DNA of 17,145 bases from Acinetobacter sp. (lineage in GTDB: Bacteria > Pseudomonadota > Gammaproteobacteria > Pseudomonadales > Moraxellaceae). The notes beneath the pieces were generated by a model that was not told where the DNA came from, made no database searches, and was given only the letters and a program-made list of their open reading frames with translations. The first letter of the stretch is position 1; every line of letters starts with the position of its first letter. Shown here piece after piece: positions 149 to 9,156 of this stretch. The position numbers and the translations under genes are program-made. The stretch covers positions 1 through 17,145 of the forward strand of contig JAUNHS010000028.1 of NCBI GenBank assembly GCA_030523805.1, given 5' to 3'.

Positions 149-1855
149 ATGCATGCCCAAAACCAATTTTTAAGCTATATTCGTGAAGCAAAAAATATCA
201 TTCAACCGATTGATATTACAAGTGATCGCTTAGATCAATTAGAAACGGAAATTCAGCACGCTGAATTAATTGTTCCTGTTGTAGGTGGCTTTAGTGCTGG
301 CAAAAGTACCTTAATTAATTCATTTTTAGGAACAGAAATTTTACCGACTGCCATTACACCAGAAACAGCTTTAGCCACCGAATTACGCTATAGCACTGAT
401 GAACGCATTGAAGCGATTAATCAATCAGGCGATACGATACATTATACTCTAGCAGATTTAAAAAGCATCAAAGACAATGCGAAAAATTTCAAATTACTCA
501 AACTTTATTTGAATAATGAGCAGTTAAAACAAATCCAACCGCTTGTATTGGTTGATATGCCAGGGTTTGATGCACCGATTGAAAGCCATAACCAAGCGAT
601 TTTAAACTATTTAAATCGTGGCGTTTATTTCATCTTTTTAACTAGCATTGAAGATGGCAATATTACGCTGAGCATGAAGCGTGAAATTGAAAATATTCAA
701 CAATTTGGCAAAGGTTTTGCTTTTTGCATTAGCAAAACCAATTTACGCACCCCAGAAGATGTACAAGACATACAAAAGCAAATTGCTAAACAATTAGATG
801 AAGATTTTGACCACACCGACCCTGTGGTTTTATTGGATATGGACGGTGGAAACAATCTCAAACAGATTTTAAATGCCATTCATCCAGAGCAATTATTTCA
901 TGCTTTATTTATTGAGCATTTAAAAGATAATGATCTCAATATTAAACAAAGTATCAACCTAAAAATCTCAACACTTAAAAGCAGTCAGCACGATGTAGAT
1001 GATACTCTACAAAATCTACAGCAAGCTGTACAAAGTTTGAATGAACAAAAAGAAACTGCTTTAGCCAATGTTGAACAGCGTTATTCCACTCAAAAAGTTG
1101 ATCAAATTGTGCGTAAAGTTACACAAGCCGTAGAAAGCCGTATCCATTCGCTTACCGATTTGGCAATGCAAAGCCCTGATGCTCTCACCAGAGAATTAAA
1201 TGATCTGATTAAACATCACTTGCTGATTGAAACACAACGCAGTTTTAGATATGTCAGCGATGAAATTTTAAATGATTTTAGCGATCATTTAAAAGCTGCT
1301 TTACCGCAAGGTAATTTATTACCTGAAGATATGGTTGAAAAAATCAAGAAAACCACTGAAACCTTGCTCAATAAAGCCGTGTCAGCTTTAGACCATAAAG
1401 TACAAAGCATGAAAAGTGATCAAGATACACAAAAAGCAATGGGTAATATCTATAAAGTAATTGCAACCATCGCAGGTATAACAACCACAGTAGTTGCTCC
1501 TGTTGTAGAAATTATCATTATTTTCCTACCAAATATTATCAGTAGCTTAACTAAAGGCTATCAAGAACGTAAAGCTAAAGCTGAAATTGAAAAAAATCTG
1601 CGTACATCTCTTATTCCTAGTATTAAAAGTGAATTACAAGAGAAATTACCTGCAATTTTCAAACAGCAAACAGCTGATTTAATTCGTGAAATCAGTGAAC
1701 AATTTGAACAACAGTTACAGCAAAAGCAAGCTGAAATTGAGCAAGTTGAGCAAGAAAAAGCGAAAAAAGCCCAAGAAATTGAGCAGATGACTGCACAATT
1801 TAATGATGCAAAACAAAAGTTAGAAGCGATTTCTAAGCAGTATTTATTTAACTAA
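149..1855 (+). CDS. Dynamin-like GTPase with C-terminal hydrophobic segment (cassette gene 1)
   Basis: The product is a 568-residue protein of the bacterial dynamin-like family (large GTPases that bind and remodel membranes). The P-loop GGFSAGKST (G1) is at residues 46-54, a switch-I TPETA at about 70-74, and DMPG (G3) at 136-139. The expected G4 motif [T/N]KxD reads SKTN (195-198), with Asn in place of the guanine-contacting Asp. A helical middle region leads to a strongly hydrophobic stretch at about residues 438-467 (IATIAGITTTVVAPVVEIII and onward), a likely membrane-insertion element. A Gln/Glu/Lys-rich coiled coil fills the last 50 residues. I chose ATG 149 because GGAG (137-140) sits 8 nt upstream. 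ATG 143 and TTG 113 are in frame but badly spaced. It is the first gene of a three-GTPase cluster and shares the GGFSAGKS P-loop with gene 3, so those two may be paralogues. It may correspond to a LeoA-type dynamin, but that is inferred from size and architecture only. Confidence 0.85.
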   Translation: MHAQNQFLSYIREAKNIIQPIDITSDRLDQLETEIQHAELIVPVVGGFSAGKSTLINSFLGTEILPTAITPETALATELRYSTDERIEAINQSGDTIHYTLADLKSIKDNAKNFKLLKLYLNNEQLKQIQPLVLVDMPGFDAPIESHNQAILNYLNRGVYFIFLTSIEDGNITLSMKREIENIQQFGKGFAFCISKTNLRTPEDVQDIQKQIAKQLDEDFDHTDPVVLLDMDGGNNLKQILNAIHPEQLFHALFIEHLKDNDLNIKQSINLKISTLKSSQHDVDDTLQNLQQAVQSLNEQKETALANVEQRYSTQKVDQIVRKVTQAVESRIHSLTDLAMQSPDALTRELNDLIKHHLLIETQRSFRYVSDEILNDFSDHLKAALPQGNLLPEDMVEKIKKTTETLLNKAVSALDHKVQSMKSDQDTQKAMGNIYKVIATIAGITTTVVAPVVEIIIIFLPNIISSLTKGYQERKAKAEIEKNLRTSLIPSIKSELQEKLPAIFKQQTADLIREISEQFEQQLQQKQAEIEQVEQEKAKKAQEIEQMTAQFNDAKQKLEAISKQYLFN

Positions 1856-1879
1856 TCGCAAATCTTTTTTCAACCCAAC

Positions 1880-1908
1880 GCACCAATGATGAAATAACAC
1901 ATTGGTGC
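1880..1908. repeat. Inverted repeat between cassette genes 1 and 2
   Basis: GCACCAATG (1880-1888) and CATTGGTGC (1900-1908) form a perfect 9-bp stem with an 11-nt loop in the 80-bp gap between the first two GTPase genes. No T-run follows on the + strand, so it does not look like an intrinsic terminator. It could be an mRNA processing or stability hairpin, or an operator dyad. Confidence 0.6.
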
Positions 1909-1935
1909 AATCACCACACATAAAGAGTATGAACC

Positions 1936-4152
1936 ATGAATATGATTGAACTAAACCAAAAAATTGAGCAATTTGTCAATAAACAAGATGAAACGTTTAT
2001 TAACGATGCAAAAGCCATTCAAACTAACCTTGACATGACCGACATCAAAGAATGGCAAAAGACTTTAAATGAACTCACCCAAGAAGGACGTGTATTGCGT
2101 GTAGGCATTATTGGTCGTGTAAAGGCAGGCAAAAGCTCTATGCTCAATGCTTTACTTTTTAATGGAGAAAATATTCTACCCAAAGCAGCCACACCTATGA
2201 CTGCGGCACTGACCATTATGGAATATAGTGAAACATTGCGTGCTGAAGTAGAGTTTTATACCGATGAAGATATTAAAGAAATTGAACAAAAGCATGCCAA
2301 ACATTCAGAGCTTTTAGAGCAAAAATTCCAAGAAAAAAAGCAGGATTTACTAGAACGCCTTAAACGAAAAAATTCTTCACCTTCGTCAATGGAAGAGAAA
2401 GAATGTTCAAACAAAGCACGCTCACAAGCTGAACGTGAGATGAAAAATGAATCTACTTTTGCTGCATACGACCAATATGAACGTATTAAAGATTCAGGCA
2501 AAACTCCAGCTAATTTAGAGCAATATAAACATATTGAAGCCAATAATTTAAATGATTTAATGAACGGTACGCTGAATAAATTTGTCGGTGCTAATGGCGA
2601 ATTTATGCCATTTACCAAATCTATTACGCTATATCTGCCAGAAGAAGGCTTAAAAGGCTTACAAATTATTGACACCCCAGGGATTAATGACCCTGTAACG
2701 TCTCGTGGTGCACGTACCGAACAATTATTGCAAAAATGCGATGTGGTATTAATTGTATCGCCATCAGGACAATTCTTAAGTAGCGAAGATACCGATTTAC
2801 TCTATCGTGTAATAGGTAAAGAAGGTATTGCCCATGCCTATTTGATTGCCAGCCAAGTAGATAACCAACTGTTTGGTAGTGAAAGTAGGGGGGTGAGTAA
2901 TCCGATTGATGTATTACATAAAGTTGAGCAAACTTTAACTTCTCATGCTCGTAACGTATTAGCAAAGCCTGAAAATCAACAAGATTTAAAAGTCATTGCC
3001 GATGCGTTAAATAAAAATAGCGTGATTTGCTCATCTAGTGTGGCTTATACCATGAGCCAGCATCTTGATGCACAGCACCAGTGGGATAACAATACGCAAC
3101 ACGTATGGACACAGCTTAATCGTCAATTCCCAAGCACATTTGGCTCGCCAAGCTCAGCAAAAGCGGCTTTAGACCAATTAGCCAATATTCAAAAATTACA
3201 TGGCATTGTACAAAAAGTAACGCAAGAAAAGGAGCAAATTTTAGCACAACGCCGTGATGATTTTGAAAAACAAAAATATAAGCTATTGCAAGATTATATC
3301 AAAGCTCTACTCGCCAATATTGATGAAACTTTAGATAAAATCAAAAACAGCGATGTAGAACAAATCAAGGAACAGCAAGGCACGCTTAAAAACCAAAAAG
3401 CAAAATTTAATATGAGTATTGGCAATACCTATGATGCGTTGATTAGCCGTGTTAAAACAAATTTGGATGCAGAATTAAAAAGCAAACTCAACAATGAAAT
3501 GAATAAGTTTTCCCCTGTTGTCGAAAATGCTCAAGACAAAGAGACAGAAGAACGGTATATCTATAAAGGTAGAAGATTTATATTCTTTGGGAAGAAAATG
3601 TACGATACTGTATATGATTCTATCGACACAGTACAAACTGCTCCAATTAAAAAAGCAATCCTAAATATACGTGATGAATTGCAAGACAGTTTAAATAGCT
3701 TAGTATTTAGTTTTTCACAAAACTTTAAGAAAGAGCTATATCAAAAAATTGTCGGTGTCATCCGTGAAACGATGGGCGATGATAATACCGATGATTTCAT
3801 TTTAGATCGTGCTTTAAAAAATGTATTAAGCAAAATTCCTGACCACAATTTTGAACTTAGAGATGCCTTGCCAAGTCAGCTCAATAAATCAAGTAAACTA
3901 AAAGGTAGTGAAGCTGATAGTTATATTGATGCAGCAAATGACTATATGCATAATCTTAAAGGTAATATTCGTACGCAAATCGACAATTATATTCGTAACC
4001 TTTATAGCGAACTGCAACGTATTGATTTGGCAAAAGATTTTACGCAAGATTTAGATCAACGTATCAATGATTTACTCAAAGATATTGAGAATAAGCAAGA
4101 AAGTTTGTATCGCTACGAGCAAATGAAGAAAGAGCTGAGCCAACTGCAATAA
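1936..4152 (+). CDS. Dynamin-like GTPase with inserted charged helical region in the G domain (cassette gene 2)
   Basis: The product is a 738-residue large GTPase. G1 is GRVKAGKS at residues 60-67, a switch-I ATPMTA is at 85-90, G3 DTPG is at 246-249, and the G4 position reads SQVD (306-309), keeping the Asp but lacking the usual Lys. G2 and G3 are about 160 residues apart, against roughly 65-72 in the two neighbouring GTPases. The extra residues (about 105-225) are rich in Lys, Glu and Gln and look helical. The rest of the protein (about 440-738) is mostly charged helix, as in dynamin stalk regions. I see no clear membrane span. ATG 1936 follows AAGAG (1922-1926) with about 9 nt spacing. ATG 1942 is a possible in-frame alternative. 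Its position between two other dynamin-like genes suggests it acts as a heterotypic partner. This arrangement is known for the Leo and Eleos systems, and membership here is inferred. Confidence 0.85.
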   Translation: MNMIELNQKIEQFVNKQDETFINDAKAIQTNLDMTDIKEWQKTLNELTQEGRVLRVGIIGRVKAGKSSMLNALLFNGENILPKAATPMTAALTIMEYSETLRAEVEFYTDEDIKEIEQKHAKHSELLEQKFQEKKQDLLERLKRKNSSPSSMEEKECSNKARSQAEREMKNESTFAAYDQYERIKDSGKTPANLEQYKHIEANNLNDLMNGTLNKFVGANGEFMPFTKSITLYLPEEGLKGLQIIDTPGINDPVTSRGARTEQLLQKCDVVLIVSPSGQFLSSEDTDLLYRVIGKEGIAHAYLIASQVDNQLFGSESRGVSNPIDVLHKVEQTLTSHARNVLAKPENQQDLKVIADALNKNSVICSSSVAYTMSQHLDAQHQWDNNTQHVWTQLNRQFPSTFGSPSSAKAALDQLANIQKLHGIVQKVTQEKEQILAQRRDDFEKQKYKLLQDYIKALLANIDETLDKIKNSDVEQIKEQQGTLKNQKAKFNMSIGNTYDALISRVKTNLDAELKSKLNNEMNKFSPVVENAQDKETEERYIYKGRRFIFFGKKMYDTVYDSIDTVQTAPIKKAILNIRDELQDSLNSLVFSFSQNFKKELYQKIVGVIRETMGDDNTDDFILDRALKNVLSKIPDHNFELRDALPSQLNKSSKLKGSEADSYIDAANDYMHNLKGNIRTQIDNYIRNLYSELQRIDLAKDFTQDLDQRINDLLKDIENKQESLYRYEQMKKELSQLQ

Positions 4153-4166
4153 TCCCCTAACCCACC

Positions 4167-4213
4167 CATCAATATGCTTTTAGGGTATGATACCATCTAA
4201 AAGTATATTGATG
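4167..4213. repeat. Long inverted repeat between cassette genes 2 and 3
   Basis: CATCAATATGCTTTTA (4167-4182) pairs with TAAAAGTATATTGATG (4198-4213) across all 16 positions, with one G-U wobble in RNA. The 15-nt loop itself contains a small dyad, GGTAT-G-ATACC. It lies just after the gene 2 stop and ends 36 nt before the preferred start of gene 3. No T-run follows, so it is more likely an mRNA hairpin (stability, processing or attenuation) than a full terminator. Confidence 0.65.
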
Positions 4214-4249
4214 TTTCAATCTCTAACCATTTATTATGAGCATTACACC

Positions 4250-6121
4250 ATGACTAAGCCAACTATCGATACCCTTTATGAATTAATCACACCTGCGATT
4301 CCATTAAAATTAATTTTCAATCGCCAGTACGCCCTTCATTTAATGCAAGAGATACGCAACCAAATCAATGATTTTTCACAGTTAAAACAACAATTTAATG
4401 TTGCCCAACACGATATTGAGCAATTAAATTTATCAAAAGATAATTTATTGCAAGAAAACAACCAACAGGCTAAACAAATTGCTGAACAGGCAGACCAACT
4501 TAATAACTTACAACAAAATTTGGATAAAAATATCGCACAGCAACACCATTTAACCCAGCAAATAGAAGATAATCAAAAAAAATTCAATGACCAACTCAAA
4601 GAAATAGAATTACGTCAAAATTTAATCGCTCAACTACTATCCGCACAAAGTAAAAATCAAGGCGTAAAAAATTTTTTTGATGCACTTTATAATGATTTTT
4701 TAAATTTTGCTAACCAAGAAAACGCATTTAAAGAAGAAGCTCAAGCCATGCTTGAATTGCAATCTATTGGCAATGAACTTAAACTCATCGGAGCATATCC
4801 TGAGTTTCATAAAAAGCATACCATTGCTGTTGCAGGTGGTTTTAGTGCTGGGAAATCAGAATTCATTAGTAGTTTATTTTTAGATCATACCATTCATTTA
4901 CCTATTGCCATTGAACCAACAACGGCAATTCCAACCTATGTGTTCCATGAAAAAACCAATGATGTGATTGGTTGCAGTAAAAATGGTGGTATTGTTAAAT
5001 TATTAGACATCGATTCAGACTTTCATCATAAATTATCACACCAGTTTATTCGCTCTTTTGGTTTCAATCTTAAAAAGATTATGCCATTCGTTTTTCTTAC
5101 TACACCGATGGTTTATGAAAATTTATGCTTTATTGATACCCCAGGTTACAATCCTGCTGAAGTGGCTGAAGGTCATACACATGAAGATGAAAATACAGCA
5201 AAAGAATTTGTCAAAAATGCTAAAGCATTAATCTGGGTGATTGGACTTGATGCCAATGGTACAATTTCAAAGAGTGATTTAGAGTTTTTAAGCCACATTT
5301 GCGAAGAAAGTGATAAACCACTTTACATCATTCTAAACAAAGCTGATTTGCGTCCTGCCGATCAACTAGAAGATATTTTAGAAGAAATTGCCGACACACT
5401 AGATGATTACGACATTTCATACAAAGGAATTTCTGCATATAGCTCTATCCACAGACGTGAATATGACTTCAAAAAAATCAATTTGAATGAATTTCTATAT
5501 CAATTTAAATATGATCACAGCTCAAATAAACATGATGTCATGTCTCAACGTTTATTAAACATTGGAGAGCAATATAAAAGTGCAATTTTAAATGCAATCC
5601 AAGAAAAGAAAAACTTAAACTCAGCCCTAAAACGTTTAAGACTTGATTTATTACAAGCTGGTGTGGATACTGACACCAGTGATGTTTATGAGCGAATTAG
5701 AGAGATACAAAAGCCTTTTAATACCGATAAGGAAGAAAAGCTCCTACAGCAACTCATCACAGTTTTTGCAAAATTCTCTAATGCGATTGATGAAACATTT
5801 GCTGCCCCCAAAAGAAATAGCAAGCTACAGATTAACTCACAAGAGATTAAACAAATGCGACAGACATCATCAAAACCTAGCAATATGCAAAATGATGTGG
5901 TAGAAAAACCACAGCCAGCTATGCAAGATTTTGATAACCTTTTAAAAATACTGAAAGTCCTTGAGAATAAAACTGTACTAGATTTAGATAATCTCGATGA
6001 TGAAACACCTAAAGATAGTAAGCCTGAAGCTAGAAAGCGTCCATGGGGGGGGGCTACTCGGGAATTTATACAGAGACTAAACATTTCTAATTCACAAAAA
6101 ACGCTTAATCAAACTGATTAA
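4250..6121 (+). CDS. Dynamin-like GTPase with N-terminal coiled coil (cassette gene 3)
   Basis: The product is a roughly 623-residue protein. Residues about 35-130 are Gln/Asn/Leu-rich coiled coil, followed by a G domain: GGFSAGKS (G1, 196-203), EPTTA (switch I, 222-226), DTPG (G3, 296-299) and NKAD (G4, 363-366). It is the only one of the three GTPases with a textbook G4 motif. The C-terminal 200 residues are helical and then low-complexity. The reading frame is open back to ATG 4187, but that codon lies in the loop of a 16-bp hairpin with AGGG only 1 nt away. ATG 4250, preceded by GAG (4238-4240) at 9 nt, is a better start. A run of nine G (6045-6053) lies 23 codons before the stop. The stop itself sits inside the downstream terminator stem. 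It is probably co-transcribed with the two upstream GTPase genes. Confidence 0.82.
   Translation: MTKPTIDTLYELITPAIPLKLIFNRQYALHLMQEIRNQINDFSQLKQQFNVAQHDIEQLNLSKDNLLQENNQQAKQIAEQADQLNNLQQNLDKNIAQQHHLTQQIEDNQKKFNDQLKEIELRQNLIAQLLSAQSKNQGVKNFFDALYNDFLNFANQENAFKEEAQAMLELQSIGNELKLIGAYPEFHKKHTIAVAGGFSAGKSEFISSLFLDHTIHLPIAIEPTTAIPTYVFHEKTNDVIGCSKNGGIVKLLDIDSDFHHKLSHQFIRSFGFNLKKIMPFVFLTTPMVYENLCFIDTPGYNPAEVAEGHTHEDENTAKEFVKNAKALIWVIGLDANGTISKSDLEFLSHICEESDKPLYIILNKADLRPADQLEDILEEIADTLDDYDISYKGISAYSSIHRREYDFKKINLNEFLYQFKYDHSSNKHDVMSQRLLNIGEQYKSAILNAIQEKKNLNSALKRLRLDLLQAGVDTDTSDVYERIREIQKPFNTDKEEKLLQQLITVFAKFSNAIDETFAAPKRNSKLQINSQEIKQMRQTSSKPSNMQNDVVEKPQPAMQDFDNLLKILKVLENKTVLDLDNLDDETPKDSKPEARKRPWGGATREFIQRLNISNSQKTLNQTD
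6045..6053 (+). repeat. G9 homopolymer near the 3' end of cassette gene 3
   Basis: Nine consecutive G residues encode part of Trp-Gly-Gly in the gene 3 tail. In the frame as read, 23 codons follow. Loss of one G gives a 10-residue alternative tail ending in ...NLYRD. Gain of one G gives ...TETKHF. Slippage would therefore swap the C-terminus rather than abolish the protein. The tract is also a site where a sequencing error could change the true C-terminus. Confidence 0.8.
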
Positions 6122-6129
6122 GCGTTTTT
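6097..6129. terminator. Bidirectional terminator between the dynamin cassette and yidC
   Basis: A perfect 15-bp stem has arms at 6097-6111 and 6115-6129, a 3-nt loop, an A-rich left flank and a T5 right end. It can therefore act on both strands. It separates the convergent gene 3 (+) and yidC (-). The gene 3 stop codon (6119-6121) is inside the right arm. Confidence 0.85.
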
Positions 6130-6151: not shown

Positions 6152-7861
6152 TTACGAACTCGCCTGCTCTTTTTGTAAACGCTCTTTCTCCACCGATTTA
6201 TTAATCAAAGTTTGCTGTAAAATCGTAATCAAGTTGTTTACAATCCAGTATAACACCAAACCAGCTGGGAAGAACAATAAGAACACCGTAAAAATAATCG
6301 GCATCATGGCAAATACTTTCGCCTGCATCGGGTCAGTCGGTTGCGGGTTTAAACGCTGTTGAATAAACATCGTCGCACCCATCACCAATGGTAAAATAAA
6401 CCAAGGGTCCATCGCAGATAAATCTTGAATCCAACCTAACCACGGTGCATGACGCAATTCCACACTTTCCATTAATACCCAATACAAGGCCAAGAAAATC
6501 GGCATTTGCAATAAAATTGGTAAACAGCCCGATAAAGGATTCACCTTTTCACGCTTATACAACGCCATCATCTCTTGAGAAAAACGCATACGGTCATCGC
6601 CAAACTCTTCCTTCATACGTTGCATTTCAGGAGCAATCACACGCATTTTCGCCATAGAGCGATAGCTTTTTGAAGACAATGGCCACAAAATCAATTTTAC
6701 CAACACCGTTAATAAAATAATTGACCACCCCCAGTTTTGTACAATTTTATGGAAAAATTCCAAGCCAATAAACAACAACTGAGCAATCGGCCAAAGCCAA
6801 CCATAATCCACCGTTTGATTTAAACCATCAGCCAATGCCTTCAATTCAGACTGAATTTTCGGGCCAGCATAGAACGTCGCATCTACCGACATAGACGTAC
6901 CCACAGGCACTTTAATCGCAGGTGATGTAAAGCCGATAATATTTGTATCATCACTTGCTTTACGAGATTCTAACTTCGCCGTGTATGGCTGACCACCATC
7001 TTGCGTCAATTTAAGCTGACCTGGTACCCACGCACTCACAAAATAGTGCTGAACCATCGCCACCCAGCCGCCTTTGGCACTCGTATCTAACTTTTCATCA
7101 GAAAAATTAGCAAATTTCAGCTTATTATAATGCTCATCAGGTGTACCCCAAGCACCACCCAAATATGTGCCTAAAGTAAAAATGCCTTGATCATCTTTAC
7201 CAGGGTCTTCCGAATTATCACGCTTAATTTGCCCAAACATTTGACCTTGCCATTCTTGCTGGCTACGGTTCGTTACCTGATGCGATACGACAATCGGATA
7301 TTTACCTTGCTCAAAAGTAAAACGTTTAATGACTTCAATACCTGCTTCATTTTGAAACACCATTGGTAATACAAACGTCTTTTGACCATTAAAATCGCTC
7401 AAATCATAGCTTGTTTTTTCTACTTCATAGGTTGGACGTGTCGCACCATCAATACCAATCAAGCCCGATTGAGCCACATATACACGATTTTTATCACTTT
7501 CCAACATCACAAAAGGTTGGTCGCTATCCTTGCTCTTATCGTGCGATAACAGCTCCAAACGAACAATATCACCACCTTTCGGATTAATCCAAAGTTGATA
7601 AAGATCAGTTTTTACCGAAATTAAATTTTGACTCTGTACAGCGGTAGTTGCACTTGGCGTACCAGCCACTTGAGCCTGTGGAATATCTGATGCAGTTGCA
7701 GTATTTGCAGTCAAATCTGCAGATACATCTTGAGATACCACAGCAGCAGCCTGCTGAGTTTCTGTTTTGGCTTGGCCATAATCTTTTTGCCAAGCTAAAA
7801 TAAGCAAATAAGCAGTAACTAAAATACCTGCTAAAATTGCCAACCTAGCCCATTTTTGCAT
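6152..7861 (-). CDS. yidC: Membrane protein insertase YidC (Oxa1 family)
   Basis: The 569-residue inner-membrane insertase places proteins into the membrane with or without SecYEG. The N-terminal signal-anchor helix is at about residues 7-24. A large periplasmic domain follows (about 30-345). The C-terminal five-helix core begins near residue 352 ([10 protein letters not shown]...). The cytoplasmic loop carries AKMR at about 402-405, holding the conserved Arg of the hydrophilic groove. Later segments include [16 protein letters not shown] and the final [13 protein letters not shown] helix. The length is normal for Gram-negative YidC. ATG is preceded by AGGA at about 9 nt. Its 5' end overlaps yidD by 17 bp, as expected for co-transcription. 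In related genomes mnmE follows, but here the gene is followed by a terminator and the convergent dynamin cassette. Confidence 0.98.
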
Positions 7862-8946: not shown

Positions 8947-8955
8947 TGTGAATAA
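8947..8955 (-). promoter_or_regulatory. DnaA box (TTATTCACA)
   Basis: Perfect match to TTATNCACA on the minus strand. It is paired with an opposing perfect box 8 bp away. Confidence 0.75.
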
Positions 8956-8963
8956 ATTTAAAA

Positions 8964-8972
8964 TTATCCACA
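8964..8972 (+). promoter_or_regulatory. DnaA box (TTATCCACA)
   Basis: Perfect consensus box on the plus strand, directly preceded by an AATTTAAA repeat (8955-8962). Confidence 0.85.
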
Positions 8973-9147
8973 ATTGCTAAATTTATAATATAATCTACAG
9001 TTACCATCTACAATATAGCAACTTAACTTAGTACTCACTTGGCATTTACTCATTTTTCCTTACTAAAATTAGCTATCACAAACATTATTCATTTAGTAAT
9101 GATACTTTTAAGCACTATACAAAGAATCAAATTTAAATTTTAATGAG

Positions 9148-9156
9148 TTATCCACA
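9148..9156 (+). promoter_or_regulatory. DnaA box (TTATCCACA)
   Basis: Perfect consensus box on the plus strand, flanked on both sides by AT-rich AATTTAAA-type repeats. Confidence 0.85.

Follow-up and report, generated by a model that had tools for sequence, protein, structure and literature searches.

What would a bacterium do with three large, mutually dissimilar dynamin-like GTPases encoded side by side? The question is raised by a stretch of Acinetobacter sp. DNA, the 17,145 nucleotides at positions 1 to 17,145 of contig JAUNHS010000028.1 (assembly GCA_030523805.1, a 1.85 Mb draft that is 90% complete and split into 220 contigs), which we refer to in full as the window and in which three intact genes, here called g1, g2 and g3, follow one another on the forward strand between positions 149 and 6121. 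Bacterial dynamins have mostly been described singly or in pairs, and what they do is disputed; searches of the open-licence PubMed Central (PMC) literature yielded no account of a module with three of them. The trio proves to be a mobile unit, rare in its genus, and we somewhat favour reading it as a hetero-oligomeric machine that acts on membranes, has one subunit as a switchable sensor and probably serves in conflict with invaders. The three genes and the parts of their products on which the argument turns are as follows:

149..1855, + strand: g1, a paddle-bearing dynamin-like GTPase of 568 aa, Cj-DLP2/LeoA-like subtype (Pfam Dynamin_N, 6.2e-18)
1469..1525, + strand: hydrophobic paddle-like segment of g1, residues 441-459 of the 568-aa form (19-residue Kyte-Doolittle mean, KD19, of 2.24)
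1936..4152, + strand: g2, a full-length bacterial dynamin-like GTPase of 738 aa, Cj-DLP1/SynDLP-like
2263..2580, + strand: predicted helical insert in the G domain of g2, about residues 110-215 (from the P-loop-DTPG spacing and the model helices)
3532..3636, + strand: predicted trunk-tip beta-hairpin of g2 with a basic/aromatic loop, about residues 533-567 (from the model strands)
4250..6121, + strand: g3, a third GTPase of 623 aa, with a coiled coil, a G domain and a short helical neck
4322..4642, + strand: long N-terminal helix (coiled coil) of g3, residues 25-131 of the 623-aa form

By Dynamin_N, which they match with 65.8, 75.7 and 48.4 bits, respectively, against a Pfam cut-off of 27 bits, g1, g2 and g3 all belong to the bacterial dynamin-like protein (DLP) superfamily, and an initial annotation of the window, which had read the locus as a compact cassette of three consecutive GTPases with different add-ons, is borne out by three open reading frames (ORFs) on the + strand, each above that cut-off; profile searches placed none of them in unrelated P-loop families. 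The best local alignments between pairs of the three proteins share 128/494, 91/357 and 24/94 identical residues. A Dynamin_N search of their own genome returned six matches, three of them g1-g3 and three of them short stretches in two other frames of 343 and 471 aa (contigs C36 and C115), which pass the cut-off only with neighbours summed and, from their sizes, are probably Era/Der-type GTPases; the same search listed no further dynamin in that genome.

The distinct anatomy of the three proteins was compared across 38 complete modules, namely 34 loci from a genome scan described below, three plasmids and the window. All three of the add-ons that the initial annotation had named are recovered. 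The first is a membrane-insertion-like hydrophobic segment in g1 (residues 441-459): segments with a KD19 of at least 1.6 occur in g1 of 38/38 modules, but in g2 of 1/38 and g3 of 3/38. The second is a G-domain insertion in g2, where the distance from the P-loop to the DTPG motif has a median of 180 residues (range 170-202 in 38/38 modules), as against medians of 85 in g1 (36 measured) and 95 in g3; the insert is modelled mostly as helices. The third is the N-terminal coiled coil of g3, modelled as one long helix. Structure models cover g3 and g2, and g1 presumably has a neck and trunk. In the g2 model, strands at 533-546 and 554-567 enclose a loop (547-552) whose predicted local distance difference test (pLDDT) score is <50, and this hairpin loop at the trunk tip is a possible membrane contact. 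The g2 model matches full-length bacterial DLPs, and Foldseek lists LeoA (4aur) for it at 5.3e-8. The g3 model has a short neck only and no trunk, and no hydrophobic segment is present in g3 of the window. The viral proteins that match the g3 structure are mainly giant-virus dynamins and small GTPases. The G4 motif is SKTN in g1 of the window (Asn for Asp in 31/38 modules), SQVD in g2 (Gln for Lys in 34/38) and the canonical NKAD in g3. As to gene starts, a GGAG lies 8 nt before the ATG of g1 at 149, with a further in-frame ATG at 143; the g3 frame opens at 4187 (644 aa), but the start is probably the alternative at 4250 (623 aa), the point at which database entry P0241 begins and Neisseria relatives align.

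The evidence that three such differently built proteins belong together comes from their conservation as a set. Among the best 120 of 1369 (g1), 4480 (g2) and 810 (g3) database matches, most of them unnamed, the homologues that carry names come mainly from Neisseria, together with Moraxella and Pasteurella sp., and those of g3 also from Campylobacterota, Providencia and others. A scan with the g3 alignment against one genome per species gave 44 loci in 43 genomes (two in Pelistega suis), whose ORFs, called by a longest-ORF rule that yields some spurious genes, were assigned with g1, g2 and g3 profiles. In 35/44 loci the genes stand in the order g1-g2-g3, in tandem on the same strand, and one further locus reads g3-g1-g2 (L024); L020 and L046 hold one extra copy each. 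Eight of the 44 loci lack the full set, five of them at contig ends (L012, L026, L028, L047 and L052) and three without such an explanation (L018, L040 and L048), although a contig end is also close to the start of L018. Hosts of the full set span several phyla and include Pseudomonas (PA7 among them), Helicobacter, Thiothrix, Rahnella, Spirochaetes, Phycisphaerae, Fibrobacteraceae, Fusobacteriaceae and Latescibacteria. Within the 38 complete modules, 58/76 intergenic gaps measure -4 to +26 nt, and the distance matrices of the three proteins are congruent (Mantel r = 0.981 for g1-g2, 0.952 for g1-g3 and 0.965 for g2-g3, none of which was reached in 2000 permutations), a congruence that also follows from shared host ancestry and that is drawn from a smaller effective number, since closely similar Pseudomonas copies are included (L033/L038/L044; L029/L031/L050). 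Each of the three families falls into a supported clade of its own, the sequences having been pre-sorted by profile. The possibility of independent paralogues without a joint role was rejected because the gene order is fixed, the distances agree and the plasmid records are shared (below), and the data support the view that the three GTPases make up a single conserved unit, as expected of a hetero-oligomeric machine.

The closest precedent for such a machine is the solved Campylobacter jejuni pair, in which Cj-DLP1 and Cj-DLP2 form a 2:2 tetramer that tethers liposomes (PDB 5owv, 5oxf) and in which efficient lipid binding and stimulated GTPase activity are reported only with both partners (PMC6104087). 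With chains assigned by size (5owv_C, 614 aa, as Cj-DLP2; 5owv_A, 732 aa, as Cj-DLP1), each of g1 and g2 prefers its own counterpart: the g1 family profile scores 53.1 bits with 5owv_C (2.2e-13) against 39.7 bits with 5owv_A (2.5e-9), tied with the bacterial dynamin BDLP (2j68, 1.7e-13), and the g2 profile scores 73.1 bits with 5owv_A (1.8e-19, its best match of all) against 41.1 bits with 5owv_C. The proposal of a hetero-oligomeric machine thus holds as far as the conserved unit and the two matching chains are concerned, and the complex itself would follow by analogy. The module differs from the Campylobacter pair in having a third GTPase, g3, and a G-domain insert in g2, and it looks like a three-part relative of the two-part bacterial dynamin systems.

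The identity with the Leo and Eleos systems that the initial annotation had put forward as an inference is not supported. Likenesses exist, in that these too are tandem dynamin genes carried on an island (Leo) or on plasmids, and PADLOC profiles catch window g1 weakly (LeoA at 1.6e-11; LeoBC at 5.9e-11, with its best stretch in the C-terminal half); LeoA matches g1 in 4/4 modules tested and LeoBC matches g2 in 2/4 (L065 at 6.6e-14 and L068 at 1.1e-8, with none in L010). Window g2 and g3 have no PADLOC Leo match (g2 none at E 10), g1 reaches 14.9 bits against the cut-off of 325 of the NCBIfam family NF041922 (LeoA/HP0731), and g2 and g3 do not match that family at E 1. Moreover, the Leo dynamin is split into LeoB and LeoC, whereas g2 of the module is one uninterrupted ORF of 738 aa, and the description of LeoA with split LeoB/LeoC in the section of PMC4159319 consulted offers no counterpart of g3. 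The other curated families are not matched above their cut-offs either. CrfC (YjdA, NF007368, cut-off 1146) is matched by g1 with 30 bits over residues 30-83 only and has no listed match in g2 or g3, and DynA (NF052648, cut-off 1600) is matched by g1 with 23.4 bits; DynA also carries two G domains in one chain, as against one in each module protein. Judged by these curated sequence cut-offs, the module falls outside Leo, CrfC and DynA. The name Eleos we take to denote the defence system otherwise called 'dynamins'. It is termed a dynamins-like system in the relevant part of PMC11811056, and existing surveys may have logged parts of the module as 'dynamins' (PMC12629846, PMC11811056), since the PADLOC LeoA and LeoBC profiles weakly catch some g1 and g2 proteins.

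The third GTPase sets the module apart. The protein g3 is a mitofusin/IniA-like GTPase, but unlike mitofusin, EHD and IniA proteins it shows no trunk, paddle or EH domain, and it carries N-terminal coiled coils, with interchangeable C-terminal parts in its relatives. It is also the variable member, with a length standard deviation across the 38 modules of 141 aa (414-1188 aa) against 25 for g1 and 22 for g2, and with 85-576 residues before the P-loop. Ten g3-type proteins, picked mostly for length, were scanned against Pfam, and five of the ten have added parts: Sel1/TPR repeats (L028 and L042), MORN repeats (L041), WG repeats (P0313) and helix-hairpin-helix motifs (L030). In L029 only sub-cut-off coiled-coil matches accompany the GTPase, and L027, P0242, P0286 and L069 show nothing above the Pfam cut-off beyond their GTPase matches. 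We infer that g3 is a constant switch with exchanged binding parts, an arrangement shared with the GTPase-centred and MoxR-vWA ternary conflict systems described in PMC7159879, in which a constant NTPase switch is joined to variable sensor and effector modules; those systems use other GTPases, and the main text of PMC7159879 contains the word 'dynamin' 0 times. Beside these proteins stands one from Sulfurimonas (P0312), in which a g3-type G domain is followed by a tail that, by eye, resembles the C-terminus of g2, a possible natural fusion of partners.

A mechanism can be proposed along these lines. By analogy with Cj-DLP2 and Cj-DLP1, g1 and g2 would form a hetero-oligomer, in which the hydrophobic paddle of g1 and a trunk tip of g2 would both enter the membrane, and which would tether or remodel membranes once its GTPase activity is switched on. 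Having no membrane tip of its own, g3 would dock with or switch the g1/g2 assembly through its G domain and neck, while its variable coiled-coil, repeat or other attachments would sense a trigger or bind a partner. The output, directed at the membrane against phage or incoming DNA, might consist in delaying lysis or in sealing or sacrificing the membrane. DynA of Bacillus subtilis provides a precedent for a dynamin in phage resistance (PMC8844932). A trio kept across phyla, with a constant membrane pair and a part-swapping GTPase, is in any case a natural experiment, in which the variable parts of g3 indicate what is being sensed; should the role in conflict be confirmed, it would add a membrane-remodelling class to bacterial immunity and bear on the origin of antiviral dynamins.

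The case for conflict begins with distribution, which is sporadic and mobile, as in conflict systems. Conservation across the family is not seen: a strong g2 match is present in only 4/175 genus genomes, one of them the module's own, while those in the remaining three have much lower scores and are of a divergent type. Across the class, at E 0.001, g1 finds matches in 72/321 genomes, g2 in 40/321 and g3 in 10/321, mostly weak stretches; scores of >100 bits are confined to the module's own genome and, for g2 and g3, to one of the 320 others (G245). On plasmids, tblastn searches, which are a check independent of the linkage seeding, gave 16 records each for g1, g2 and g3 among 72,556, with 15 common to all three: Pseudomonas (2), Calditerrivibrio, Photobacterium, Moraxella and ten from Escherichia, which are so alike that the effective number is smaller. 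Cross-hits between G domains do occur, as in AP031475, where the g1 match lies in a g3-like gene and a separate g1-like frame is also present. The Escherichia version of the trio is found in 5 of 5,426 complete E. coli genomes, always on plasmids.

The second element is the regulators that surround the module. WYL proteins are linked to defence, and the module loci, 752 kb in all, contain 19 WYL frames, or about 16 genes (three genes appear as two frames apiece), a density of ~21 genes/Mb against 0.5/Mb genome-wide and hence a ~40-fold enrichment, with the caveat that the baseline, 81 matches over the 158 Mb of the 43 module-bearing genomes, comes from a Pfam search and hence from a different method than the locus count. 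With our own WYL profile, the same as for the locus count, random regions of those genomes gave 0 in 393 kb. A WYL gene stands <1 kb upstream on the same strand in 9/44 loci; 17 of the 43 immediate upstream ORFs, picked by size and strand, were sent to Pfam, and nine proved to be WYL. The neighbour set comprised 256 of 290 listed ORFs and one hand-added WYL gene (L065; its L027 twin is also unlisted), and among these 257 WYL was recognized in 17 by PADLOC, 16 by Pfam and 13 by our own profile; the last figure compares with 0/137 in a control of 137 of 316 usable ORFs from random regions, one dynamin-containing region having been left out. Our profile served for the control because the family listings cover the first 25 families of each scan, where families with one member do not show. 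One Pseudomonas plasmid copy reads WYL-g1-g2-g3 and has for neighbours DEAD-helicase and EH-signature genes consistent with ZorD and ZorC matches. Because the unit moves between genomes and plasmids, often with WYL regulators, its likely role is conflict with invaders.

Divergent cousins strengthen the case. In L106 (4899-8588; G042:C3) a patatin-like phospholipase (1.3e-28) is fused to a g1-like dynamin in a protein of 1230 aa, with a weak, sub-cut-off EAD9 match between the two parts, and the gene order is WYL, fusion, g3-like, TerB, one unassigned gene and g2-like; this cluster may be a form of the system that is equipped with an effector. In a genome of the window's genus (L104, 1608-13488; G418:C5), a larger cluster of g1, two g3-like genes, an unassigned 508-aa ORF and g2 runs on into bpMoxR and VWA genes like those of MoxR-vWA conflict systems. 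Both cousins, by patatin fusion or bpMoxR/VWA genes, recall the systems of PMC7159879.

A number of observations weigh against the conflict reading and against parts of the mechanism. The departures of g1 and g2 from the G4 consensus [NT]KxD are conserved, so that on sequence it is not certain that these two proteins bind GTP. The N-terminal 119-residue assembly domain of Cj-DLP1 is missing in g2, where 62-74 residues precede the GKS of the P-loop in the 38 modules. The 44 loci were found via g3 and are blind to g1 or g2 occurring alone. No WYL gene lies just upstream in 35/44 loci, and the genome that holds the window gave no WYL match. PADLOC defence families match the 137 control ORFs as well as the neighbours, and only WYL stands out; we dropped these family counts as defence-island evidence, the control ORFs matching 133 families, of which many are PD-T4-6 models with a single member. 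Searches of 50,697 phage records with g1, g2 and g3 gave no match, nor did viral contigs, searched with two peptide patterns for g3 only, and a phage-borne origin was rejected on this basis. Finally, predicted dynamin defence genes in a Pseudomonas island, which may or may not be of the g1-g3 family, are reported as inactive against the phages tested (PMC12595487).

A bolder form of the conflict reading, which we advance tentatively, takes the module as a widespread and so far undescribed three-GTPase immune machine in which a membrane-acting dynamin pair is gated by the non-membrane g3 acting as an exchangeable receptor, with g3 as the only conventional GTP switch. The G4 departures in g1 and g2 hint at an altered nucleotide preference; an Asp-to-Asn change in G4, as in g1, is known to have an effect in Ras. 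Mx and GBP are dynamin-family antiviral GTPases, and if this form were true the module would be a bacterial parallel to them, with cousins that fuse a phospholipase effector to a dynamin and with conserved G4 changes that leave g3 alone as a conventional switch.

The rival that survives best, which we judge unlikely, is a role in membrane stress or envelope repair modelled on proposals for DynA or IniA, whereby the trio would maintain the inner membrane, or close it again, when antibiotics or other stresses act on it, and would spread horizontally where useful; a variable, sometimes repeat-rich g3 fits conflict better than housekeeping repair, and so does rarity in the genus and class. Less probable still is a vesicle or secretion role of the kind proposed for LeoABC, in which the machine would shed membrane vesicles. 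The weak match of g1 to LeoA, the LeoBC matches of g2 in L065 and L068, and the lowered secretion of a periplasmic marker and OmpA on leoAB disruption (PMC4159319) speak for it; against it stand the NCBIfam LeoA score below cut-off, the want of a g3-type third GTPase in the Leo section consulted, and the neighbourhoods, where secretion genes do not recur among the first 25 of 116 and of 129 neighbour families scanned. Equally improbable is a selfish, plasmid-centred unit that serves its mobile element (by exclusion, transfer or membrane-linked partition) and not the host, for although plasmids from five genera carry trios, in one case flanked by traU and traN, and Pseudomonas megaplasmid copies lie near integrases, transfer genes are absent from the first 25 neighbour families of each scan of the genome loci.

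There remains the genomic setting, for which the flanking features of the window are:

6097..6129, no strand: terminator-like 15-bp inverted repeat at the convergent junction of g3 and yidC
6152..7861, - strand: yidC, the right-hand flank, convergent to g3
8947..9156, no strand: DnaA boxes of the probable oriC, between rnpA and dnaA

The names yidC, rnpA and dnaA are those that we assume from gene order and general knowledge, and mnmE, likewise assumed, is also recognized through Pfam PF12631. The location 'beside oriC' in the initial annotation stands, with DnaA boxes at 8947, 8964 and 9148 and the cumulative GC-skew minimum of the window near 8.5-9 kb; its relevance does not, as the nearness looks incidental, a by-product. 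A functional linkage with oriC was rejected, since copies also occur on plasmids and 12/12 relatives have no such genes there. In the 12/12 genus relatives examined, a match to mnmE (by a query without the N-terminus) begins 430-453 nt after yidC, which leaves no room for the module, whereas in the window genome the module and not mnmE follows yidC. The module's left flank is the contig end, and contig C180 opens in a truncated mnmE. The module was likely inserted at the yidC-mnmE junction; the cut mnmE (L090, G000:C180:1-3000) is as expected if C7 and C180 adjoin on the module's left side.

Further trios were met with along the way. An E. coli plasmid (L068, 5186-12786; NZ_CP148279.1) carries a divergent dynamin trio with a fourth gene annotated CFI-box-CTERM, and the Photobacterium plasmid (L067, 5222-11992) has g1, g3, two small ORFs and g2 between its conjugation genes traU and traN. 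In the Bacillota, a Lysinibacillus plasmid (L109, 4285-11325; NZ_CP106863.1) holds three tandem dynamin genes of similar length, weakly matched in the g1 and g3 searches. Within the class of the window's genome, at G083:C2:225224-229408, three frames in a row with weak g1, g1/g3 and g2 matches form perhaps a further divergent trio.

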